64,000 nt of DNA. Source: Acidimicrobiales bacterium (GTDB lineage Bacteria > Actinomycetota > Acidimicrobiia > Acidimicrobiales > SHLQ01). The translations under genes and the position numbers were made by a program. The first letter of the stretch is position 1; the number at the start of each line of letters is the position of its first letter. This document shows positions 36,183 to 49,902 of this stretch, one piece after another. The notes below the pieces were generated by a model. The model had not been told where the DNA came from. It made no database searches and saw nothing but the letters and a program-made list of their open reading frames with translations. Location: positions 143,480-207,479 of the forward strand of contig JAHDCX010000003.1 in the NCBI GenBank assembly GCA_020629635.1, given 5' to 3'.

Positions 36183-37160
36183 TCACGCCTCGCGGACCAC
36201 CTCAGACGGGTCCTTGTCGGTCCGCAGACCCAGCAGACTCGGGTGCCGAAGATGTCCGTCAGGGGTCCATTCGCCAAACGCTACTTCGACCACATGGGTG
36301 GGCTCGACCCAACGATGCGTCCGGCCCGGCGAGGGCGGAACCGGACCATCGAATGGGCTCGACGCTCGTGCCGCCTCCTCCACCCGCTGCATCCACGCCT
36401 CCAACGACGCACCGTCGAGCCCGGACCCGACGCTGCCCACGTAACGAAGACCGCCGCCGTCCTGCACACCGAGGAGCAGCGACCCGATCCCGCCGGCGCG
36501 GCCGTCGCGACCGGTCGACCAACCCCCCACCACGAACTCCTGCCGCCGACGCGGCTTGATCTTGCGCCACGACGGCGACCGCTTGCCGGGGTGGTACGCC
36601 GACCGCCGTTGCTTGGAGACGATCCCTTCGAGCCCGCGCTCGGTCACCACCTCGAGAAGGGCCGCGGCGTCGCCCTCATGCACGGAGGCGCAGCGCCACC
36701 ATTCGCCACCCTCCTCGAGCACCTGCTCGAGCAAATTCCGGCGATCCTCCCAGGCGAGACCCATCAGGTCGTGGCCCCCGAGATGAAGAAGATCGAATCC
36801 AATGAACGTCACGGGGGTTGACACCGAGCGTCGCGAGGCTTCGACGGGATCCTGCACGTGCATGCGGTCCTGCAGCCGGGAGAAGCTCGGGGTCCCGGCG
36901 TCGTCGACCGCAACGATCTCCCCGTCGACGACGAGGGGGCCAAACGTTGCGAGCGCCGAGCCCATCGCCGCGAGCTCGGGGTAGGCGGCGGTTGCGTCGT
37001 TGCCGTTGCGGCTCTGGATCCGGATGTCACCCTCTTCGACGAACACCACGCCGCGCATGCCGTCCCACTTGAGTTCGTGGATCCAATCGTCGCCGTCGAC
37101 GAGCTCGCCCGCCGACGCCTTCATCGGAATGATCGTCCGGGACCCGAACGGGCGAATCAC
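36183..37160 (-). CDS. ATP-dependent DNA ligase (LigC/LigD-ligase type)
   Basis: The 325-aa product joins nicks in duplex DNA through a lysyl-AMP. The adenylated Lys is in ELKWDGMRG (Lys31). Other ligase motifs are VDGEIVAVDD, EGIVSKQR and WRKIKPRRRQEFVVGGW, followed by an OB domain ending THVVEVAFGEWTPDGHLRHPSLLGLRTDK. The GTG start at 37160 overlaps the upstream stop (GTGA). Without attached polymerase or nuclease domains it resembles stand-alone LigC involved in repair or Ku-linked end joining. No ku gene is in the window. Confidence 0.9.
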   Translation of the reverse strand: MIRPFGSRTIIPMKASAGELVDGDDWIHELKWDGMRGVVFVEEGDIRIQSRNGNDATAAYPELAAMGSALATFGPLVVDGEIVAVDDAGTPSFSRLQDRMHVQDPVEASRRSVSTPVTFIGFDLLHLGGHDLMGLAWEDRRNLLEQVLEEGGEWWRCASVHEGDAAALLEVVTERGLEGIVSKQRRSAYHPGKRSPSWRKIKPRRRQEFVVGGWSTGRDGRAGGIGSLLLGVQDGGGLRYVGSVGSGLDGASLEAWMQRVEEAARASSPFDGPVPPSPGRTHRWVEPTHVVEVAFGEWTPDGHLRHPSLLGLRTDKDPSEVVREA

Positions 37161-37642
37161 GAATGGCGTTCCGCGAGCCGTTCGAGCGATCGACCCCAGG
37201 CATCGATCATGCGCTGCGTGGTGAATCCGGCGCCGAGGCGGTGCTGCCACCCGAGCTCGAGTGCGCCCGTCCACCGCAGCGTCGTCCGCACCTCGCCGTC
37301 GCGCGACGTGTCGATCAGGTCGAGCACTTCGATGGCGGCCGAAGCGAGCGGGAGATTCGTGCGATCGAGACGAAAGCCCCATCGCTTCTCCGGCTCGAAG
37401 ACGATGCACGTCTCGTCGACGACGAGTGGTCGGACGTCGATTCGTCGAGTGTCCCCAACGGCGGTCCAGACCGTCGGTTGACCCTCGCAGGATCGACAAC
37501 CGTCGAACCACCCCGACCACGTCGAGTTGTCGACGATGGTCGACCACAGACTCACCGCGTCGACCGGAACGTCCACCTCGGTGCTGACGACCCGGTCACC
37601 CGTGTCGAGCAGCTCGAGGCCGGCGGCGCGCAAACGAGGCAC
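37157..37642 (-). CDS. SRPBCC (START/polyketide-cyclase-like) protein
   Basis: With GTG 37642 as start it is 161 aa. The start has AAGG five bases upstream and follows the stop of the small ORF by one base. The fold is suggested by STEVDVPVDAVSLWSTIVDNSTWSGWF at the N terminus, alternating strands, and the long C-terminal helix (MIDAWGRSLERLAERHS). Such proteins bind hydrophobic ligands; the ligand is unknown. It is translationally coupled to the DNA ligase, an odd pairing. Confidence 0.78.
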   Translation of the reverse strand: MPRLRAAGLELLDTGDRVVSTEVDVPVDAVSLWSTIVDNSTWSGWFDGCRSCEGQPTVWTAVGDTRRIDVRPLVVDETCIVFEPEKRWGFRLDRTNLPLASAAIEVLDLIDTSRDGEVRTTLRWTGALELGWQHRLGAGFTTQRMIDAWGRSLERLAERHS

Positions 37643-37643
37643 G

Positions 37644-37772
37644 TCAGCCTTCGTCTGACGGCGGCGAGGCCGCCTCGTCGCCAGACCGAGCATCCTGTGG
37701 CACCTCGGGCTCACCGAAGAAGTCGAGCAGATGATCGAAGAAATCCGTGAGCGGATCGGTCGGTTCGGCCAT
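37644..37772 (-). CDS. Small acidic 42-aa protein, candidate
   Basis: ATG 37772 to TGA 37644 encodes a 42-residue acidic peptide with an amphipathic stretch (PLTDFFDHLLDFFGEPEVP) and a Ser/Pro/Asp tail. It heads the SRPBCC-ligase operon, with one base before the next start. Its codon use matches neighbouring genes, but the ribosome-binding site is weak. I do not recognise it. Confidence 0.5.
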   Translation of the reverse strand: MAEPTDPLTDFFDHLLDFFGEPEVPQDARSGDEAASPPSDEG

Positions 37773-37830: not shown

Positions 37831-39420
37831 ATGACCGCAACATCGGCACGGGTCGACCCGAAGTGGTCGGATCACGCCAAGGCATTCGGCATCCGAGCGA
37901 TGCGCTGGTCGCATCGCCGAACCCTCGAGACCACGAGTGCCAAGACCTACCGGCGCCGCGTGGTCCCGACGTCGCCGAGCCCGAGGTTGATGCCCGCCGC
38001 ACGCGTCCACAAGGGCATGGGCTGGTTGCCGACCTCCCTGATCGTTCCCGATGTGCTCCCGAAAGAAGCCAAGCTGCCGCTGCCGTACTACCTCGCCTAC
38101 TACGCGACCTCGAAGATCGGCTGGACGCTGTACGGCAAATCTCCGATCGACCCCGATGTCACGTTCGACCCGTCGTCGACATGGAACGAATGGTTCCCCG
38201 ACGCTAGCCGCGGCTGGGGCTCACCGACCGACGACGCCGCCTTCACTGCGCTTCGGCTTCAGGGGCCGAATCCGTGCATGTTGCGCGCCGCCAACGCCAA
38301 TCCCGACCTCGGCGAGACGGGCTACGCGCTGATCTACTCGCTCGACTTCGGCCCGTTGTTCGACGGCGTGTTCCCCGCAACCGAGGCACGATTCGCGACG
38401 ACCTCCACCGGCCTCAAGCCGTTGTCGATTCGGATCGGCGAACGGGTCGTCACGCCAGACCACGACGGTTGGGCCGATGCGAAGCGAGTCGTCAACGGCC
38501 TCGATGCCCGCTACGCGATCTTCATCCGGCATCTCCTCAACGTGCATCTCATGGTCGGCCAGGCATATGCGCTCGCGGCCTACGCCCTCCCGGTTTGGCA
38601 TCCGCTCCGACCATTCATGCAATTCTTCACCTACGGCACGCTCGTCGTGAACGATGCGGCGTACAAGGCATTGCTCACCCCAGACAGCTACTTCATTCGA
38701 TCGAACTTCGTGTCGGCCGACGACGCCCACACCCTGATCGAGAATGCGATGACCTGCTTCGACTTCCGGGAGTGGTGTTGGCCGCTCGACAAGACCGCCC
38801 GCGGACTCGCAGGAATCCCGAACCACCCCTTCGTCGAGGAGGCCGAACCACTCTGGGAGATCCTCGAGCGAACGGTCCGACGCCATCTCGTGCACCTCGA
38901 CCTCGACGCTGCGGCGATCGACGCCGACCGGGATCTCCGCCGGTGGCACGAGATGTTGACCGAGGTCCTCCCCGACGATTCGAACGTGCCCGACCTGGCC
39001 TCCGTCGACGATCTCGTGCTCCTCATGACCGCACTGCTGTGGAACAACGTCATCCACGAGGTGTGCGGCAACCTGTCACCCCTGCTCGACACCCGCGACG
39101 ACGCCGACCTTGCGGCGGTCAACTTCGAGAATCTTCGTGCGCTGGCTGACCCGGATCGGCAGCCGTCACCGCCAACCGCGGCGGACGTCTTCTTGATGGA
39201 TCAGGCCACTCACGTCAGTCGATTCAACGTGGCCGGCAACGCGCTCATGGAGGTGGACGCCAACGCGAACATCGACGACCCACGCCTGCGCGATCTCGTC
39301 ATCGACCTCCAACGAGAGCTCGTCGCGGCGGACGCCGCCGTTGACGAACGGAACCGACGCCGCCTCATCTCCTTCGAGACCATGCGCCCCAAGAAGTTCG
39401 AGGCCTCAATCTCGTTCTGA
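37831..39420 (+). CDS. Lipoxygenase-like protein
   Basis: The 529-aa product starts at ATG 37831, with GGAGG eight bases upstream. The core matches lipoxygenases: WADAKRVVN, then HLLNVHLMVGQAYALAAYAL with the two iron-binding His spaced H-x4-H, and the HPLRPFMQFFTYGTLVVN segment. A third His is in LLWNNVIHEVCGNLS, where lipoxygenases have H-x3-N/H; here the spacing is x4. It ends in SISF rather than the usual C-terminal Ile ligand. It would dioxygenate polyunsaturated fatty acids if active. The altered ligands mean activity is uncertain. It converges on and overlaps the catalase-fold gene by 15 bp. Confidence 0.68.
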   Translation: MTATSARVDPKWSDHAKAFGIRAMRWSHRRTLETTSAKTYRRRVVPTSPSPRLMPAARVHKGMGWLPTSLIVPDVLPKEAKLPLPYYLAYYATSKIGWTLYGKSPIDPDVTFDPSSTWNEWFPDASRGWGSPTDDAAFTALRLQGPNPCMLRAANANPDLGETGYALIYSLDFGPLFDGVFPATEARFATTSTGLKPLSIRIGERVVTPDHDGWADAKRVVNGLDARYAIFIRHLLNVHLMVGQAYALAAYALPVWHPLRPFMQFFTYGTLVVNDAAYKALLTPDSYFIRSNFVSADDAHTLIENAMTCFDFREWCWPLDKTARGLAGIPNHPFVEEAEPLWEILERTVRRHLVHLDLDAAAIDADRDLRRWHEMLTEVLPDDSNVPDLASVDDLVLLMTALLWNNVIHEVCGNLSPLLDTRDDADLAAVNFENLRALADPDRQPSPPTAADVFLMDQATHVSRFNVAGNALMEVDANANIDDPRLRDLVIDLQRELVAADAAVDERNRRRLISFETMRPKKFEASISF

Positions 39421-40368
39421 CTCCGCCTCGGGGCGGAAGACGTTGTTGATGCGGCGGAGGTCCCATCGGCGAAGGCGGTCGGCCTCGGCGACGTGGTGTC
39501 GAAAGAAGAGCCGGTCGACGCCCGGGGCACACACGAAGGTCGAGGTCGCCGTGATCGTGCCGATCACGCGACGCTCCTCGTGAGGACCAATCGCTTCGAT
39601 CTCGTAGAGGTCGAGCTCGGGTTCGAGGCTCAGGAAGGGCACCCGGAAGTCCTCTTTGGCCGTGGTTCGGTAGACCGCTTTCACCGCACGATGCGGATGG
39701 AACACGAGCCGATCAGGCACCGCCGGCGCCGCTTCGGTCGATCCGTCGGGACGAGTTGTCGCCAGGTGATCGATCGTGAGACGACGCGGCTGCGTCGACA
39801 CCATCCGGAAGAAGAACGCGAGGAGTTTCTGTGGCGGACGGAGCGCCGAATGCTCACCACGAAGATCATGGCTGAACGTGTTCGCGAACACGTTGTGATC
39901 CCGGCCCTGACCCACCGTGTGGTTCATCGCGAGCAGGTCGAGCGACGGCGCGCCGTCGACAAACACCTTCAGGCCGAGACCCGGGGTGAACGATTTCTTG
40001 CCCGATGGCGGCGTCGCAAGCGAGAACCGGGCCACGCCCACGGGCGTGGGGCCGCCACCGAGCACGCCGGTGAACGGCGAATCGCCCGCGATCCGGAGTT
40101 CGACCATCGCCGCAACACCCTGTGCATGAATGATCTTCGGACGGTCGGCTTCCATCAGGTCGTCGGTACGGTCCAGCGTGCGCGACAGCACGTCCGGCTT
40201 CGCACCGACGGAGGCCATCGTCCACGGCTTCGCCAACGTCAGATCCGGGCGCTCGACCGGCGAATACTCGCCAGCGCAGAAGAGCTCCTCCCACATCCAG
40301 CGATGTTTCTCTGCCGCCGACCACGACTCGTACCCCGCCGGCGTCGTGGCCGTGAGGTCTGCCGTCAT
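39406..40368 (-). CDS. Catalase-fold (catalase-related/allene-oxide-synthase-like) protein
   Basis: The 320-aa length suits the small catalase-related class. The distal-His motif is KIIHAQGVAAMVEL, followed by PTPVGVARFSLA, FTPGLGLKVFVDGAPSLDLLAMN and a HNVFANTFS segment, in catalase order. Near the C terminus RWDLRRINNVFRP aligns with the region that holds the heme-ligating Tyr, but Phe stands there, so heme binding is uncertain. Relatives break down fatty-acid hydroperoxides or act as peroxidases. Its start overlaps the cyclase-STAND stop (ATGA), and its end overlaps the lipoxygenase-like gene. Confidence 0.6.
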   Translation of the reverse strand: MTADLTATTPAGYESWSAAEKHRWMWEELFCAGEYSPVERPDLTLAKPWTMASVGAKPDVLSRTLDRTDDLMEADRPKIIHAQGVAAMVELRIAGDSPFTGVLGGGPTPVGVARFSLATPPSGKKSFTPGLGLKVFVDGAPSLDLLAMNHTVGQGRDHNVFANTFSHDLRGEHSALRPPQKLLAFFFRMVSTQPRRLTIDHLATTRPDGSTEAAPAVPDRLVFHPHRAVKAVYRTTAKEDFRVPFLSLEPELDLYEIEAIGPHEERRVIGTITATSTFVCAPGVDRLFFRHHVAEADRLRRWDLRRINNVFRPEAESERD

Positions 40369-43058
40369 CGACTCGCCACCACGTCTTCGAGTGTCGCGAT
40401 CGCCAGCGAGGCCGCATCATTCGTCGACAAGGAAGCTCCGTCGTTCTTGGCCGATTCGGCATCAGGACCGAGCGCCTTGTCGATCGCACGGATCGCGTTC
40501 TCCCGAGGCAGGTGTCCGTTGGCCACCATCGAGCCGATCAGCCGGGCGCCAGTCGGCGCCATGCCGACACGAGACAGCACGATCGCCGAGACGCCAAACA
40601 AGTGCGAGGTCCCCGACAGGTAGTGCTGGGCGTGGGCACGGCGCAACCCATCGAGGGTCTTTGCGAGCACGTCATCGAGATCGCCCCGGGTCGCCGAGAA
40701 GTGGAGCTCGAGCCCGACGATCAGATGGACGAGAAGGTGCACGTCGGTGATCGACCGAGCTGCGTCGAGACCGAGCCGCCACTGCCGCAGGCCCGCCTCC
40801 ATCGACGAGAAAGTCTCGACCATGCCGTTGGCCCATCGGGCGAGCGCCTGTGCCGAAGCGCTGCCGGACGACTCGGCGATCGCCACCATCTCGGCGGCGT
40901 GAACGGCCGCTTCGGGCGACGGCGCATTGGTGCACAGATGAAATGTCCGCATGCCGAGCGCCCAAAGGCGTGACATGTCCGGCGAATCATCGCCCAACGA
41001 GTCGATCCAGTCCGCCGTCCACCGCTCGGAGTTCTCCGCCACGTGCACGTTGTTCAACGAGACGGACGTGAGCGCAAGACGACAGAATCCGTACGGGTCG
41101 GAGGGGTCGATCGCAAGCCCGGCCTCGGCGTCGGCCGAGCCGTCCGAGGCGACGGAGATGTACTTGCGGATCGCCCGGAGACCATGAATCGAGGCGGCCG
41201 AGTCGAGCGAATCGAACCCCTCGTGCCGAGCCACCTCCTCCGCCCATGCGAAGGCCTCGGTCCGCAGGGACAACGTTGCGTACCAACCGACATCGAGCAA
41301 CAGCCCCGCAGCACCCTCGAGGCGGTCCTGCAGAAGCAGCGTCTCGAACGACGCTCGGATGTTTGCCCACTCCCGATCGAGGAGCTCCCAGACTTCGGCT
41401 TCCTTCGACGTCACGAGCAGATCGGCTTGGTCGTGCACGAGCGCCCGGTAGTGATCCGCGTGGCCCGTGCGATAGATCGTCGACGTGCCTCGGTCGTCGA
41501 GTCGTTCCTGGCCGAACTGACGAAGGATGCCGAGCATCGAGAACCGGATGTGTCCCGCCCCGCGCTCGCTCATGACCATCGACTTGTCCACGAGCGACAT
41601 CACGATGTCGAGAACCTCGTCGGGATGGATCTCGACCCGACCCTCTACGGGTTCGTGATCCGCACAGACTTCCATCACCGAGTCGAGCGAGAAACCGCCG
41701 ACGAAGACCGACAGACGATCGAACAGCGTCGCCTGCTTCTCGTCGAGCATCTCGTACGACCAGCGCACGGTGTCGCGCAGCGTCGTGTGCCGACCTCCTG
41801 AACGACCCGAGCGAAGCACCTGGAACCGATCCTCCAGGCGATCGAGCAGGTCTTGTGGCGACAACACCCGCACCCAGGCTGCGGCCAGCTCGATCGCCAG
41901 CGGGACGCCGTCGAGGCGTTCGCACACCGACCGAATCAGATCGTGGTCGCCAGCGGTCGGCCGAAACGACTGGTCACGTTCCAGAGCACGCTCCAGAAAC
42001 AGCTCGACGCCTGCGCTCGACGCGTCGAGCGGGCGAAGCCCGAACAGCTGCTCACCAGCGACGCCGAGCGGCTCGCGAGAGGTGAGGAGAAGCGATGTCG
42101 ACGTCGCGGCCAGCAGCTGGTCGGCCAACAGGCGAACTTCGTCCGCAACATGTTCGCAGTTGTCGAGAATCACGAGCGCGTTCCGACCCTCGAGATAGTT
42201 GACGATGCTCGCCGACAGGCTCAAGCCGGGCTGCGGTCGGGCGCCAAGCGCTGCAGCCACCGCCTCGACGACCGCTTCGGGTTCGGAGATCGTGCCGAGT
42301 TCGCAGAAGACTGCGCCATCGGCATGTGCGTGCTGTCGCTGCCGGCCGATCTCGAGCGCGAGGCGGGTCTTCCCGACACCACCGGGGCCGATCACCGTGA
42401 TGACCCGGTTGTCTTCGCACAGGCCGACCAGGTTCTCGATCTCACTTTCTCGACCAATGATCCGCTGCGCCACCTCCGGGAGTGACCGTGCGCCGACGCC
42501 GACCCGGCTTCGCAGTGGCCGGTCGTCGGTGACCAGATCGTCCGCCGTGAGCAGGTCGATCTGCTCGGTGCCGATTCCCTTGAGCTGGTGGTCGCCCATG
42601 GGGACTCGGGCAAAGCTCGACAAGAATCGGGACACGACTCCACTGATCGCGATCTGATCGCCGTTGGCGACATCCATGACCCGCGCCGCACGATTGACGG
42701 GCGGCCCGTAGTAGTCGCCGCGGGTCGGCTGCGCCTCGCCCATGTGCAAACCCATGCGGACCTTCAGCCGCTCGATGCCGTTCCAGTCACTCGCCTGCAG
42801 GGCCCGCTGGCAGGCGATTGCTGCCGACGCTGCATGTTCGGGATTTCCGAACACGGCCGCCACACCATCACCGGTGTTCTTGAAGACGACACCGTTCTTG
42901 GCCGCGATCTCCCGGCGCAGGATCTCGTCGTGGATGTTGATCGCCTGACGCATGTCGTCGGGAGCGGCCTCCCACCGAGGTGTGGAGTCCTCGACATCGG
43001 TGAACAAGAAGACGAGGATCCCCGATGGGAGTTCGGCGTCCGGAAGCGGCGTGCTCAC
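40365..43058 (-). CDS. Class III adenylate/guanylate cyclase fused to a STAND-type ATPase
   Basis: The 897-aa product has a cyclase domain at about 10-180: FLFTDVEDSTPRWE and GDGVAAVF supply the metal-binding Asp residues, FKNTGDG the substrate Lys, and PVNRAARVMD the transition-state Asn and Arg. An NB-ARC-like ATPase follows (Walker A GPGGVGKTR, Walker B ALVILDNCEHV, LLTSREPLG, GVPLAIELAAAW), then a helical repeat tail. Mycobacterial relatives usually end in a LuxR helix-turn-helix; none is visible. The start is GTG 43058, with AGGA eight bases upstream. It probably makes cAMP under control of the STAND module. It sits 10 bp after the hydrolase gene. Confidence 0.88.
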   Translation of the reverse strand: MSTPLPDAELPSGILVFLFTDVEDSTPRWEAAPDDMRQAINIHDEILRREIAAKNGVVFKNTGDGVAAVFGNPEHAASAAIACQRALQASDWNGIERLKVRMGLHMGEAQPTRGDYYGPPVNRAARVMDVANGDQIAISGVVSRFLSSFARVPMGDHQLKGIGTEQIDLLTADDLVTDDRPLRSRVGVGARSLPEVAQRIIGRESEIENLVGLCEDNRVITVIGPGGVGKTRLALEIGRQRQHAHADGAVFCELGTISEPEAVVEAVAAALGARPQPGLSLSASIVNYLEGRNALVILDNCEHVADEVRLLADQLLAATSTSLLLTSREPLGVAGEQLFGLRPLDASSAGVELFLERALERDQSFRPTAGDHDLIRSVCERLDGVPLAIELAAAWVRVLSPQDLLDRLEDRFQVLRSGRSGGRHTTLRDTVRWSYEMLDEKQATLFDRLSVFVGGFSLDSVMEVCADHEPVEGRVEIHPDEVLDIVMSLVDKSMVMSERGAGHIRFSMLGILRQFGQERLDDRGTSTIYRTGHADHYRALVHDQADLLVTSKEAEVWELLDREWANIRASFETLLLQDRLEGAAGLLLDVGWYATLSLRTEAFAWAEEVARHEGFDSLDSAASIHGLRAIRKYISVASDGSADAEAGLAIDPSDPYGFCRLALTSVSLNNVHVAENSERWTADWIDSLGDDSPDMSRLWALGMRTFHLCTNAPSPEAAVHAAEMVAIAESSGSASAQALARWANGMVETFSSMEAGLRQWRLGLDAARSITDVHLLVHLIVGLELHFSATRGDLDDVLAKTLDGLRRAHAQHYLSGTSHLFGVSAIVLSRVGMAPTGARLIGSMVANGHLPRENAIRAIDKALGPDAESAKNDGASLSTNDAASLAIATLEDVVASR

Positions 43059-43068
43059 ACTCACGATC

Positions 43069-45921
43069 CTATGAGTCGGCGGGCACGGGTGACCCCACGG
43101 ACAACCCGGTGATCTGTCGAGCAAGGTCGTGAAGCGCCGAGTCGGCGTCGGCCGGAAGGAACGCACGGAGATCAAGATCCGGGGCGATGTGCCCGGCAGC
43201 GAGGTGATCGTCGAGTGTCCGCCGTGCTCCGGCATCGCCCTTGGCGAGCATCGCAAACGCCAGCTGCATCTGCTGGTCCGGAAGCATGCCGGTCATCGAC
43301 TTCTCCAGATCGACGTCGGCGGGTGTGCGGTCTCCGACCGCCAGCTCTGCGGCGAGATGATCCGCCCGCCGTCGGTTGGCCGGACGAACCCGACCGAGCT
43401 GTCCGCGCGCTCGCTTCGTCTCCCCAAGCAAATGCCACTCCACCGCGGCTGCGACCCGGGCCCGGTCGGACACGCCTCGGACGTCGGTGACCTGCTCGAC
43501 GAGGGCGCAGCGATGAACATAGGAATCGATGTCCTCCGAAACGGCCATGCCGGTGAGGATCGCACGTTGCCGCAAGAGGTTGCGGACGCGGAGGAGACCA
43601 GCGGACGCATGCACGTCACCCCATGCCGCCGTCTTTGCGTCGAGCCGTGCCGATCCAAACGTCTCGTGCGCACGATCGAGGTGACCTTCGCTGAGCTGCC
43701 AATCGCCAAGACGTAGTCGGGCTTCGACACGGCTGTTGTATCGATGCATGACCCAGTCCTGGAAACGGCTCGAACGCAAGATCGCGGGCAAGCCAGCCGC
43801 CAACGCCACTGCGGCGACGATGGGCAGCACCAGCCGACCGATCCCGCTCCACGAACGCAGATCGAGCCCCGACCACCAATCACCAACCCACCCCGGTGCT
43901 ACGGCAAACGAGCTCCACAGGGCGAGGGCGGCGACAAGGACCACGAACGCCGGCGTTGCGCCGTGGCTCGCCTCTCCGGGTCCCAGCTCCTGGCGGCTCT
44001 GTTGACGGTCCCACGACGACCACACGGCGTGCGCCACCTGCACCACGATGGTCGCCACGACCAGATACGCGCCGACGGCCATCACCCCGTCCCATGGCTC
44101 GACAACCACCCGCGGAACGAACGAGGGCAAATCGATCGGTGACCATCGGTCGATCGGGCCACCGTCGGCGACGACGTGCTCGTACCAACCCGCAACCGTC
44201 GCGGGCCCGTCCGCCCAGGTGCGTAAGGCGAAGATCGTCGAGCTGACGACGCCGACCCAGGTCGCAATCATCCGCCAACCGACGCGCCACCGACGCACGA
44301 ACCCGTAGTTGGCCGTGCGCTGTCGAACACGCTCGGCCTGCATCGCCCCCACATTGGCGAGCTCCAACAGCTCCACGCCGAGGAAGGTGAGGCATTCGTC
44401 GGTGTTGCTCGTGTAGGTGTTGTGGTCTCGGGCGATCGATCCAAGGTTGGACACCCGCCACGAGTTGGGCCAACCCGCCCGGGTCGTGATCGTTGGTCCC
44501 GCCGGAACCGGGTCTCGTCCCGCGTACAGATCGAGCCACCGTCGGGTTCCGGTGCGATAGAGGTCATTGGGAATCGGCGGAATCTCGTCGGCCGCGATGA
44601 GCGCGATCGAGCCGAAGCCGACGATCACCGAGACAGCGGCGATCAGACCCACGATGCCTCGATCGACCAAGGCGACGGAGACGACGACGGCGCACCCGCC
44701 CGCGATGGCCAGCACGCTCGGCAACGCCGCCTCGAGCGACGGCCGAAATACCCCCGCGCGATTCAGAAGTGAATCGACGTAGTCACCCGGCCCGAGGCGG
44801 ACTTCGTCGTTCTCGCTCGATGACGCGACGGCGATCTTTCGCAATGCCGTCCACAGCGTGGCAACCGCAGTGACCGCAACGGCTACACCCACCCATCCGA
44901 AGGAGCTCATCGCATTCGTCCGCTCGAGCTCACGCAGCGAGATCGAGGCCGCAACGGCACAGATGGGGACGAGCAGCGACGCCGTTCTCAAGTTGCGAAG
45001 TCCGCGTGCTCGGCCGAGATGTTCGAGCGCATGCACCTTCGGGAGTCCCGACCCGACGGTCACGAGCGAATCGACGGGCACGAGTTCGTGTGCCTCGTGA
45101 TCTCCGTCCCTTGCGGCGATGGCGAGGTCGGCCAGAGCTTTGTACGAGACGGCGGCTCCCTGTGAGTGTGCGACGATCACCACTCGCTCGCACCCCGCTT
45201 CACGGAGCCAGCGCAGACCGTCCACGATCGGCGCCTTGATGGCGCCGGCCTGGGTTGGGCTCCCGGTCAGTCGTTTCGTGTCGCCGATCGTCCCGATCGC
45301 CGCCAGCTGCGCTTTTGCGACGGCCAGCCGAACCGCATCGATCGGGATCAACGTCCCGACGAGGCCGGCGACGAGCAACACGGTGAACACCGCCAGAATC
45401 ACCGGCGAGATCATCACCAGCCCGATGAGTGCCGTGAGCACTGCGAGGATTCGGAACGCCTCGAGGACCCGCCACACGGGACTACTCGAGAAACGAAACC
45501 GGGCAACTGCGGACCGAACGATGGCGTTGGCGTGCATCGCTGCGGTCGCCGGTACCGACACGAAACTCCAGGACCACAGCTCGCCGAACGTCGGGGGCTC
45601 GAAGGTCCCGGCCCACCACCCTTCAGCCAACAACCATCGTTGCGTCTGCACGGCTCCCGGGTGGTGACCCGACGGGTCGTCGGGTTCGAAGCGAAGCTTC
45701 ATCGTCAGATGTGCGGGTTCGCCGACGGGCTGCAGCGAGGCTTCGGTGATGGATGCGACAGGAGATCGCCACGTGACTTGTTCATCGACCGACCACGACT
45801 CGAGCCATCGAACAAGGGCGTCGGCCCACTGGGTGAGGGTCTGACCCCGTCGTTGATTTCCGATTCCGTGCACCACGAGCACACCGAGCTCGTAGTCCTT
45901 GCTCCCGCCCGACTCGATCAA
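43069..45921 (-). CDS. Multi-pass membrane protein with alpha/beta-hydrolase (lipase-like) motifs and a helical-repeat tail
   Basis: The product is 950 aa from a TTG start at 45921 with GGAGGG nine bases upstream. The N terminus holds VLVVHGIGNQRRGQTL, an oxyanion-hole-type motif, and the nucleophile elbow VVIVAHSQGAAVSYKAL (G-x-S-x-G variant) follows near residue 250. The two are separated by a pair of membrane helices (about 155-195). More helices lie at about 315-355, 405-450, 560-580, 625-650, 680-700 and 720-745. The last 200 residues are TPR-like. Hydrolysis of a lipid at the membrane is plausible but not proven. Confidence 0.7.
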   Translation of the reverse strand: MIESGGSKDYELGVLVVHGIGNQRRGQTLTQWADALVRWLESWSVDEQVTWRSPVASITEASLQPVGEPAHLTMKLRFEPDDPSGHHPGAVQTQRWLLAEGWWAGTFEPPTFGELWSWSFVSVPATAAMHANAIVRSAVARFRFSSSPVWRVLEAFRILAVLTALIGLVMISPVILAVFTVLLVAGLVGTLIPIDAVRLAVAKAQLAAIGTIGDTKRLTGSPTQAGAIKAPIVDGLRWLREAGCERVVIVAHSQGAAVSYKALADLAIAARDGDHEAHELVPVDSLVTVGSGLPKVHALEHLGRARGLRNLRTASLLVPICAVAASISLRELERTNAMSSFGWVGVAVAVTAVATLWTALRKIAVASSSENDEVRLGPGDYVDSLLNRAGVFRPSLEAALPSVLAIAGGCAVVVSVALVDRGIVGLIAAVSVIVGFGSIALIAADEIPPIPNDLYRTGTRRWLDLYAGRDPVPAGPTITTRAGWPNSWRVSNLGSIARDHNTYTSNTDECLTFLGVELLELANVGAMQAERVRQRTANYGFVRRWRVGWRMIATWVGVVSSTIFALRTWADGPATVAGWYEHVVADGGPIDRWSPIDLPSFVPRVVVEPWDGVMAVGAYLVVATIVVQVAHAVWSSWDRQQSRQELGPGEASHGATPAFVVLVAALALWSSFAVAPGWVGDWWSGLDLRSWSGIGRLVLPIVAAVALAAGLPAILRSSRFQDWVMHRYNSRVEARLRLGDWQLSEGHLDRAHETFGSARLDAKTAAWGDVHASAGLLRVRNLLRQRAILTGMAVSEDIDSYVHRCALVEQVTDVRGVSDRARVAAAVEWHLLGETKRARGQLGRVRPANRRRADHLAAELAVGDRTPADVDLEKSMTGMLPDQQMQLAFAMLAKGDAGARRTLDDHLAAGHIAPDLDLRAFLPADADSALHDLARQITGLSVGSPVPADS

Positions 45922-47926: not shown

Positions 47927-48775
47927 TCAGCGAATCGAGCGCCAGAGATGGTCGGCGATGGCCCGGTCGCGCCCGGCGAGATGGGTGGTTTCGAGCGAGC
48001 GAGGGCCTGCCGCCTCGATGAATCGAATCATGGCCTCGGCGACCTCAGGACGTGCGGCGATCGCGGACATCGGTGCGATCTGTGTCTTGACCGTGAACAC
48101 GATCATGCCGCTGAAGGCCAGTCTCCACAGCACCTGACGTTCGGACCGGATCCACAACTCGTCGACTTCGTCGACGTCGTCGATCGGGCGAGCCGCGACG
48201 GGCCCGGGGGCAAACAATTCGGGGTGATCGTGCACGAAGAAGTTGCGACGCCAGACCGGACGGGCCGGGGCGAGACGATCGAACACCCGGTCGACGCGTC
48301 GTGCGAGCAACTCGTCGTAGCCATCCACCGGCGCGTGAATCTCGCCCATGGGCAGACCGAGCTTGTCCGACAGCCGCCAGTGGTTGGGGAACACGAGGGC
48401 ACCCGCGACGAGCCGCCAGCCCTCGGGATTCCCCCGCTTGTCCATGACGAAGACGTCCTCAGGAATCGTTCGGGCGATCTCGCCAAGGTGATCGACCGCC
48501 GTGGTCCCCGCCGGCGACAGCGGTTCGGTCCGCCGAACGCCGAGCAGACCAACGAGCTCCGACGTGGCCGCGTCGACGTCGTCGAGCGATTGCACCAGAT
48601 CCCCGTGTGTGGCGAGCAGTTGCCGACGAAGCCGCAACTCGTCCTCGGTGTTCGCGTCTGTCACGAGCCACTCGTCCGGCGACAGGGCTCGGGTCCCGAG
48701 TTGGAGCTCGGGAGGGCCCGGCGTGAGCGGAAGCTCGCTCAGCCAGTTGTGATTCGGATCGGGAGCGTCCGTCAC
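47927..48775 (-). CDS. DUF3445 / heme-dependent oxidative N-demethylase-like protein
   Basis: The 282-aa product matches DUF3445 by VFPNHWRLSDKLGLPMGEIHAPVDGYDELLARRVDRVFDRL in segments (FPNHWRLSDKLG, IHAPVDGY) and RRNFFVHDHPELF. Family members include the alpha subunit of a heme-dependent oxidative N-demethylase acting on secondary amines. I start at GTG 48775; a TTG at 48781 overlapping the upstream stop is also possible. It closes an operon with the PLP enzyme and a hydratase. Confidence 0.75.
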   Translation of the reverse strand: MTDAPDPNHNWLSELPLTPGPPELQLGTRALSPDEWLVTDANTEDELRLRRQLLATHGDLVQSLDDVDAATSELVGLLGVRRTEPLSPAGTTAVDHLGEIARTIPEDVFVMDKRGNPEGWRLVAGALVFPNHWRLSDKLGLPMGEIHAPVDGYDELLARRVDRVFDRLAPARPVWRRNFFVHDHPELFAPGPVAARPIDDVDEVDELWIRSERQVLWRLAFSGMIVFTVKTQIAPMSAIAARPEVAEAMIRFIEAAGPRSLETTHLAGRDRAIADHLWRSIR

Positions 48776-48777
48776 GG

Positions 48778-49902
48778 TCAACCGAATGCTGCGTCGAGGG
48801 ATCGATCGATGTCGGACCACAGATCCTCGACGTGCTCGCAGCCGACGGAGAAGCGAATCAACCCATCGGGAATTCGCTCCTGACCCGGGATCACCGAGCG
48901 CCGCTCCCACGTCGACTCGACACCACCGAGACTCGTCGCATGATTGATCACCGACGATGCACTCACCACCGTCGACGCATCGGCTCCACCCCCGGCGACC
49001 TCGAAACTCAGCACGGCGCCAAAACGGTGCATGAACGAGACGGCGTGCTCGTGGGTGGGGTGCGTCGCCAGCCCCGGATAGCGAACGAGCGTGACGCGAG
49101 AATCCTCGGCAAGCCGCTCGGCCAGCACCTGGGCATTTGCGCAGCCACGTTCGACCCGGAGTGGCAGCGTCCGAATGCCGCGGACGGTCAAGAACGCGTC
49201 GAGTGATCCGATCGTGCCCCCGTCGATGAGTCGGCGATCGAACAGCGTCTGGTGGAGTTTGGTGTTGTCTGGCGCGACGACGAGCACGCCGGCCATCAGA
49301 TCCGAGTGGCCGCCCAGGAACTTCGTCGCCGAGTGCATGACGACATCGGCACCGAGCGCGAGTGGCCGCTGGACGAGCGGCGTCGCGAAGGTCGAATCGA
49401 CGGCCAGGACGGTGCCGTCACGACGATCTGCCGCGCAGATCGTGGTGAGGTCCGCGACATCGAGGAGGGGGTTTGCTGGGGTCTCGACCCAGACGAGATC
49501 GTGGGTTCGGAGCGCCGTCATCCACCCGACCGTGTCGGCGGGATCGATCCGGGTGACGGTCCACCGCCCTTGCTCTCGACCCGTTTCCGCCAGGGCTTCG
49601 ACCGCGTGATACGGGTCGGTCGGTATGGCGATCGACGAGCCGACCGCGAGCCCATGGAACAGGCACGCCGCGGCGGCCATGCCAGAGGAGAACGCCAGTC
49701 CGGAGCCGCCGTCGAGTCCTCCCACGAGAGACTCGAGCGCGAGTTGGGTTTCCGTGCCTTCGCTCCGCGTGTACACGCGCGTCGCCGGCGGATCATCCGG
49801 ACCCGGTAGCCGAAAGTTCGACGCAGGGATCGGGGGCACGTTGAGTGGCGCGTCGCGAGCCTCGGGTCGGCCGCCCCGAATCGCCCAGGTGGAGGGATGC
49901 AT
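48778..49902 (-). CDS. Cys/Met-metabolism PLP enzyme (cystathionine gamma-synthase/lyase family)
   Basis: The 374-aa protein has fold-type I landmarks: YTRSEGTETQLALESLVGGLDGG, SSGMAAAACLFHGL, DSTFATPLVQRPLALGADVV and the PLP-binding Lys in MHSATKFLGGHSD. A C-terminal IRFSVGCEHVEDLWSDI follows. It could be a cystathionine synthase, lyase or methionine gamma-lyase; sequence alone does not decide. It lies 15 bp after the hydratase gene and directly before the DUF3445 gene. Confidence 0.88.
   Translation of the reverse strand: MHPSTWAIRGGRPEARDAPLNVPPIPASNFRLPGPDDPPATRVYTRSEGTETQLALESLVGGLDGGSGLAFSSGMAAAACLFHGLAVGSSIAIPTDPYHAVEALAETGREQGRWTVTRIDPADTVGWMTALRTHDLVWVETPANPLLDVADLTTICAADRRDGTVLAVDSTFATPLVQRPLALGADVVMHSATKFLGGHSDLMAGVLVVAPDNTKLHQTLFDRRLIDGGTIGSLDAFLTVRGIRTLPLRVERGCANAQVLAERLAEDSRVTLVRYPGLATHPTHEHAVSFMHRFGAVLSFEVAGGGADASTVVSASSVINHATSLGGVESTWERRSVIPGQERIPDGLIRFSVGCEHVEDLWSDIDRSLDAAFG

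Follow-up and report, generated by a model that had tools for sequence, protein, structure and literature searches.

In uncultured Acidimicrobiales, a lipoxygenase gene (LOX) is obligatorily paired with a gene for a predicted catalase-fold protein (CAT), a cyclase-STAND gene and a lipase gene are constantly near this pair, and in part of the genomes the lipase is fused to LOX. With moderate confidence, we propose that these genes form a conserved lipid-oxidation cassette in which a lipase, LOX and CAT would act in that order under the control of cAMP. The locus lies in a window of 64,000 nucleotides from contig JAHDCX010000003.1 of an Acidimicrobiales genome assembly of 4.45 Mb in 37 contigs (GCA_020629635.1). 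A sequence-only reading of the window had suggested that four genes, including a membrane hydrolase gene (HYD), might constitute a bacterial oxylipin system. All four open reading frames were recovered (Table 1), and the functional link among them is better supported than at first noted, except for the comparison of CAT with allene oxide synthase.

Table 1. Features of the module in the window and transporter genes of three related loci
Feature	Position	Strand	Basis
Lipoxygenase (LOX), 529 aa, stand-alone catalytic domain	37831..39420	+	PF00305, ALOX15B phmmer, predicted structure
Catalase-fold protein (CAT), 320 aa	39406..40368	-	AlphaFold model, structural match, alignment
LOX/CAT stop-end overlap, 15 bp, tail-to-tail	39406..39420	.	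convergent contact conserved in relatives
Class III adenylate cyclase + STAND/NB-ARC ATPase + helical-repeat region	40365..43058	-	Pfam, alignment of 14
HYD, membrane alpha/beta-hydrolase-like protein, 950 aa	43069..45921	-	motifs, hydrophobic segments
MFS transporter, C-terminal cNMP-binding domain	L048:5996-7705, L050:5073-6734, L054:14111-15766		

CAT, cyclase-STAND and HYD follow one another head to tail on the minus strand in an operon-like arrangement. The junctions described earlier are all present in the sequence, namely the convergent overlap of LOX with CAT, an ATGA in which the CAT start codon is shared with the cyclase-STAND stop (cyclase ORF end at 40365), and a gap of 10 bp between the HYD stop (43069) and the likely cyclase start, a GTG at 43058; a second in-frame GTG is located at 43064. 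Near the module, the window also encodes a HODM_asu-like protein (haem-dependent oxidative N-demethylase alpha-like, 1e-47) at 47927-48910 on the minus strand. An ORF for an ATP-dependent DNA ligase (ligase and C-terminal domain) lies at 36183-37547, also on the minus strand, and its open frame overlaps an SRPBCC-type gene at 37157-37714.

A gene-neighbourhood survey had been set beforehand as a test of the locus, and relatives of the genes proved to be neighbours in other genomes. Among 148 genomes of the order, the nine with a LOX match were also the nine with a CAT match, and in profile searches of 397 genomes the LOX clade and CAT were found in the same 17 and never apart; the one further LOX match among the 397 (G267) was to a distantly related LOX of a different type. 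Three more genomes (L041, L042 and L049) came from scanning genome contigs, for 20 genomes in total. The relatedness of the genomes inflates these counts as independent cases, but there are genomes of the same genus and family that have neither gene. LOX and CAT are adjacent and convergent in 20 of 20 genomes, with measured stop-to-stop distances between -15 bp (overlap) and +55 bp (gap), of which the automatic value for L037 was distorted by read-through past the CAT gene's own stop. Where the source is named, all relatives come from Acidimicrobiales metagenome-assembled genomes, and the carriers form a rare and patchy group within the order. Recurrence in 20 genomes argues that the arrangement is not due to chance.

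In order to delimit the module, the flanking ORFs of 18 loci were clustered. The families present in more than two loci were LOX, cyclase-STAND, CAT, HYD and an MFS transporter with a cNMP-binding domain; three CAT genes masked by longer antisense ORFs were recovered by tblastn. The edges of the module therefore coincide with the four genes noted at first, plus the transporter in three loci. Chance adjacency and plain ancestral synteny were rejected as explanations, since all other flanking genes differ. The divergence of LOX correlated most strongly with that of CAT (r = 0.967), followed by the fused lipase (0.941) and HYD (0.47), with an r of 0.41 for the cyclase that became 0.61 once one outlier was removed. 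This ranking indicates that LOX and CAT are the core of the module, with the sensor more loosely held. In the window's own genus, five genomes have LOX of the fusion type. The window itself has the stand-alone type, and the LOX proteins most similar to it (62%) are found in genomes of another family. Movement of the cassette between lineages is therefore probable, as judged from an incomplete tree.

The LOX protein, previously described as lipoxygenase-like, matched Pfam PF00305 over the family cut-off (E 9.6e-8) and human ALOX15B in a phmmer search (E 1.5e-11). Its AlphaFold model (pLDDT 83) aligned with human 12-LOX (8ghb) over 454 residues (model residues 41-527) with a Z of 29.8; the predicted structure thus folds as a full-length lipoxygenase catalytic domain, which bears out the earlier description. 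Candidate iron ligands His234, His239 and His409, assigned from an alignment as HxxxxH and a later histidine, are invariant in 18 sequences. Canonical lipoxygenases end in isoleucine and have a fourth side-chain ligand (His, Asn or Ser) four residues past the third histidine. In this clade, the usual fourth-ligand position is Gly413 in 18 of 18 proteins with Asn or Asp at 414, where a register shift is possible, and the C-terminal residue is aromatic throughout, with 16 Phe and 2 Tyr among the 18 (Phe529 in the window). The glycine and the aromatic C-terminus together mean that normal lipoxygenase activity is not assured. The C-terminal isoleucine of lipoxygenases binds iron through its carboxylate (PMC11011848), and the terminal carboxylate of this clade aligns at the right place, so that the side chain departs from the canonical one while the iron ligand itself may not. 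No hydrophobic export segment was found in either LOX or CAT, and a pattern scan of viral contigs found no LOX relatives.

A lipase gene is present at 18 of the 20 loci; the contigs of the other two (G138 and G641) are broken beside the module, so every unbroken locus has one. The lipases are of three unrelated kinds. HYD occurs only with stand-alone LOX, in the window and in L037 and L039-L042. It matched no Pfam family over cut-off, with DUF900/LCAT matches below threshold located at the nucleophile elbow, and its profile returned only repeat-protein noise from PDB sequences. Its sequence motifs comprise a nucleophile elbow, an oxyanion motif, an aspartate and a histidine (VHGIG, AHSQGA, D470 and H500, invariant in six members), from which a candidate triad of Ser253, Asp470 and His500 is assumed, and each member has 7-9 hydrophobic segments. 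In 11 genomes (L044-L054), LOX carries a class-3 lipase as an N-terminal fusion (PF01764 8.7e-11; invariant GHSLGG motif), and there is no HYD. Finally, a patatin phospholipase adjoins LOX in L087 (PF01734 8.8e-25). The two main lipase types track two LOX clades. That unrelated lipases can stand in for one another argues for fatty-acid release as a needed step, and the lipase-to-LOX link, inferred in the earlier reading, takes the literal form of a fusion protein in these 11 genomes. Among the open-access papers searched, we found none on lipase-lipoxygenase fusions or on lipoxygenases of Acidimicrobiia, which leaves novelty unproven. With three unrelated lipases, one of them LOX-fused, fatty-acid release becomes directly testable.

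The cyclase-STAND protein, present at 18 of the 20 loci with the other two limited by contig, matched the Pfam families Guanylate_cyc (2.7e-11) and NB-ARC (3.9e-9). Class III cyclases use two metal-binding aspartates, a Lys/Asp pair for adenine and an Asn/Arg pair for the transition state. The window protein retains this adenylate cyclase set in an alignment of 14 (D87, D130, K126, D181, N188 and R192) together with the Walker Lys296, with residue numbers counted from the ORF start at 43256; the cyclase of L051 looks degenerate. In three loci, the MFS transporter with a cNMP-binding domain (1.5e-17) is encoded between cyclase-STAND and the lipase-LOX gene. The intact residues and this transporter strengthen the proposed link to cAMP. 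Relatives of cyclase-STAND are common across the order, some of them in genomes without LOX. One such relative (L133:7856-11686, 49% identity), from a genome without the LOX-CAT pair, directly precedes an uncharacterised 350-aa gene, and this different neighbour suggests that the sensor type also pairs with other outputs. The cyclase as an exclusive partner of LOX by descent was rejected on the basis of its weaker co-variation and its relatives without LOX.

The presence of STAND sensors, cyclases and swappable lipases recalls known phage-defence designs. A defence or self-limiting system was considered, in which the STAND protein would sense attack, cAMP would be made, the lipase and LOX would destroy or peroxidise membrane lipid, and CAT would protect LOX or restrain it. 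Such a system would fit the patchy occurrence of the module and the difference between the window locus and the loci of its congeners. It would also fit PADLOC matches in relatives, in which Pycsar effector domains are resembled by the cNMP domain of the transporter (8.8e-15) and phospholipase effector models by the patatin (9.4e-36). However, LOX, CAT and HYD gave no PADLOC match, and the only match of the window proteins to CBASS or Pycsar components is that of the cyclase to PycC, which is weak (0.0039). Moreover, constancy and co-evolution are strongest for LOX and CAT rather than for the sensor, unlike in effector-swapping systems, and no further family, not even one of defence genes, is shared by more than two flanks. 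We consider a defence role unlikely, but a live alternative given the effector-like parts of relatives.

For CAT, phmmer and profile searches gave no match in Pfam, NCBIfam or the PDB. Its AlphaFold model (pLDDT 79, pTM 0.81) was informative, as the catalase superfamily accounted for all of the top 50 matches in a structure search (Z 10.6-11.4); the Foldseek matches included the allene oxide synthase of coral (1u5u). The predicted structure has the catalase barrel of cAOS and cHPL, in agreement with the catalase fold claimed earlier. The heme site of the coral enzyme comprises Arg64, Arg102, Arg360, the distal residues His67, Thr66 and Asn137, and the proximal Tyr353 (PMC5617202). CAT His81 and Asn149, invariant in 18 proteins, correspond to the distal His67 and Asn137, and the invariant Arg114 matches Arg102 by position. 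Lys78 stands in place of Arg64, the Arg360 region is absent, and the residue preceding the distal histidine, Thr66 in cAOS, is Ile80 in 18 of 18 CAT proteins. The structural alignment stops at residue 353 of human catalase, which we take to be just ahead of the Arg354-Tyr358 proximal helix, and where the barrel ends there is an invariant RLFFRH-type motif that includes His291. No tyrosine is present past this motif in 17 of 17 complete CAT tails. CAT thus ends before the proximal helix, and none of the relatives has the heme-ligand tyrosine found in catalase and in the coral enzyme. The likeness to allene oxide synthase accordingly holds for the predicted barrel and the distal His and Asn and fails at the missing proximal Tyr and the Thr-to-Ile replacement, so that the allene-oxide-synthase label is not supported. 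A frameshifted or broken catalase was rejected, because 17 complete relatives share the short end. The host genome (96.5% completeness) has no PF00199 catalase.

Without the proximal tyrosine and its helix, heme binding by CAT is not assured. The His291 motif may supply a new heme ligand, or CAT may be heme-free. As a variant of the last step of the cassette, CAT could be a non-enzymatic, heme-free catalase-barrel partner or chaperone, with LOX alone making the product. This would agree with the lack of the proximal helix in all members, with the strict pairing and co-divergence with LOX, and with a tail-to-tail contact that keeps the genes linked; however, the invariant His81, Asn149 and Arg114, whose counterparts in relatives take part in heme chemistry, exceed the needs of a scaffold, and we regard a purely non-enzymatic CAT as rather unlikely.

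For the lipid-oxidation cassette, we infer the substrates, the order of steps, the cAMP output and the chemistry of CAT from protein families and genomic context. The lipase, HYD in the window, would act on lipid of the membrane or on imported lipid to free an unsaturated fatty acid, which LOX would oxygenate to a fatty-acid hydroperoxide. CAT, encoded on the opposite strand with a touching 3' end, would convert, handle or channel the hydroperoxide. Cyclase-STAND would sense a cue, make cAMP and control the output of the pathway, and in some relatives cAMP may gate the transporter moving a substrate or product. Against this proposal, no PUFA synthase, PfaA included, was found over cut-off in the host, where PF00487 identified only five desaturase-family genes. 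It is quite unlikely that the module instead serves catabolism or detoxification, with lipase and LOX opening foreign polyunsaturated lipids of algal or other eukaryotic origin and CAT removing peroxides with no signalling product: a host without PfaA over cut-off may take its substrate from outside and the lack of a PF00199 catalase would also fit, but the flanks share no recurrent gene family for beta-oxidation, aldehydes or peroxidases, CAT is missing the proximal ligand that catalase chemistry requires, and neither LOX nor CAT has a detected export segment.

The locus is a variant of a known pairing of lipoxygenase with a catalase-fold protein. Fusions of catalase-related hemoproteins with lipoxygenases are documented (PMC5617202, PMC11719350), and in Plexaura AOS-LOX, Capnella HPL-LOX and the Acaryochloris and Anabaena catalase-LOX proteins, as here, a catalase-fold protein is strictly linked to a lipoxygenase. 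In contrast to these fused proteins, the Acidimicrobiales genes are separate and convergent, and in relatives LOX is fused to a lipase instead. CAT differs in its lack of the proximal Tyr and in having Ile for the distal Thr, and the cassette adds a cyclase-STAND gene and an actinobacterial host. MAP-2744c of Mycobacterium avium (3e4w/3e4y), about 300 aa, shares the barrel predicted for CAT (Z 11.0) without a phmmer or profile sequence match; unlike it, the CAT family stops right past the barrel with no tail Tyr. LoxA of Pseudomonas aeruginosa (PA-LOX) has the same fold as the model of the window LOX (Z about 27), whereas identity to LoxA and other stand-alone bacterial lipoxygenases is about 20%, and the window LOX differs from these in its aromatic C-terminus, linked partners and lack of a detected hydrophobic export segment. 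The domain order of the window cyclase-STAND (cyclase, NB-ARC, repeats) is that of other actinobacterial class III cyclase-STAND/NB-ARC proteins, but the window copy has been recruited beside LOX-CAT, with the 49%-identical relative lying beside a different gene.

Experimental data on the natural function of bacterial lipoxygenases are limited to Myxococcus, Nostoc and Pseudomonas (reviewed in PMC11011848). The role of these enzymes is largely obscure. The genome context described here gives a concrete pathway, and the cassette suggests that bacteria can make and control their own oxylipin chemistry. The most specific form of the proposal remains tentative, namely a cAMP-controlled oxylipin cassette containing a CAT without proximal Tyr, in which His291 or a partner would supply the ligand or heme would be dispensed with, and served by three unrelated lipase forms including a LOX fusion. 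A CAT without proximal ligand would change the view of what a catalase barrel needs.

A second, canonical-looking LOX type (PF00305 9.9e-62, C-terminus ...ASIDV) was also encountered, at L031:1282-2928 and L032:4918-5922, with a 46%-identical copy at L093:6154-7737. No CAT was found beside this type at these three loci. In L031 and L032, the gene is divergent from an adjoining BTAD/NB-ARC regulator.
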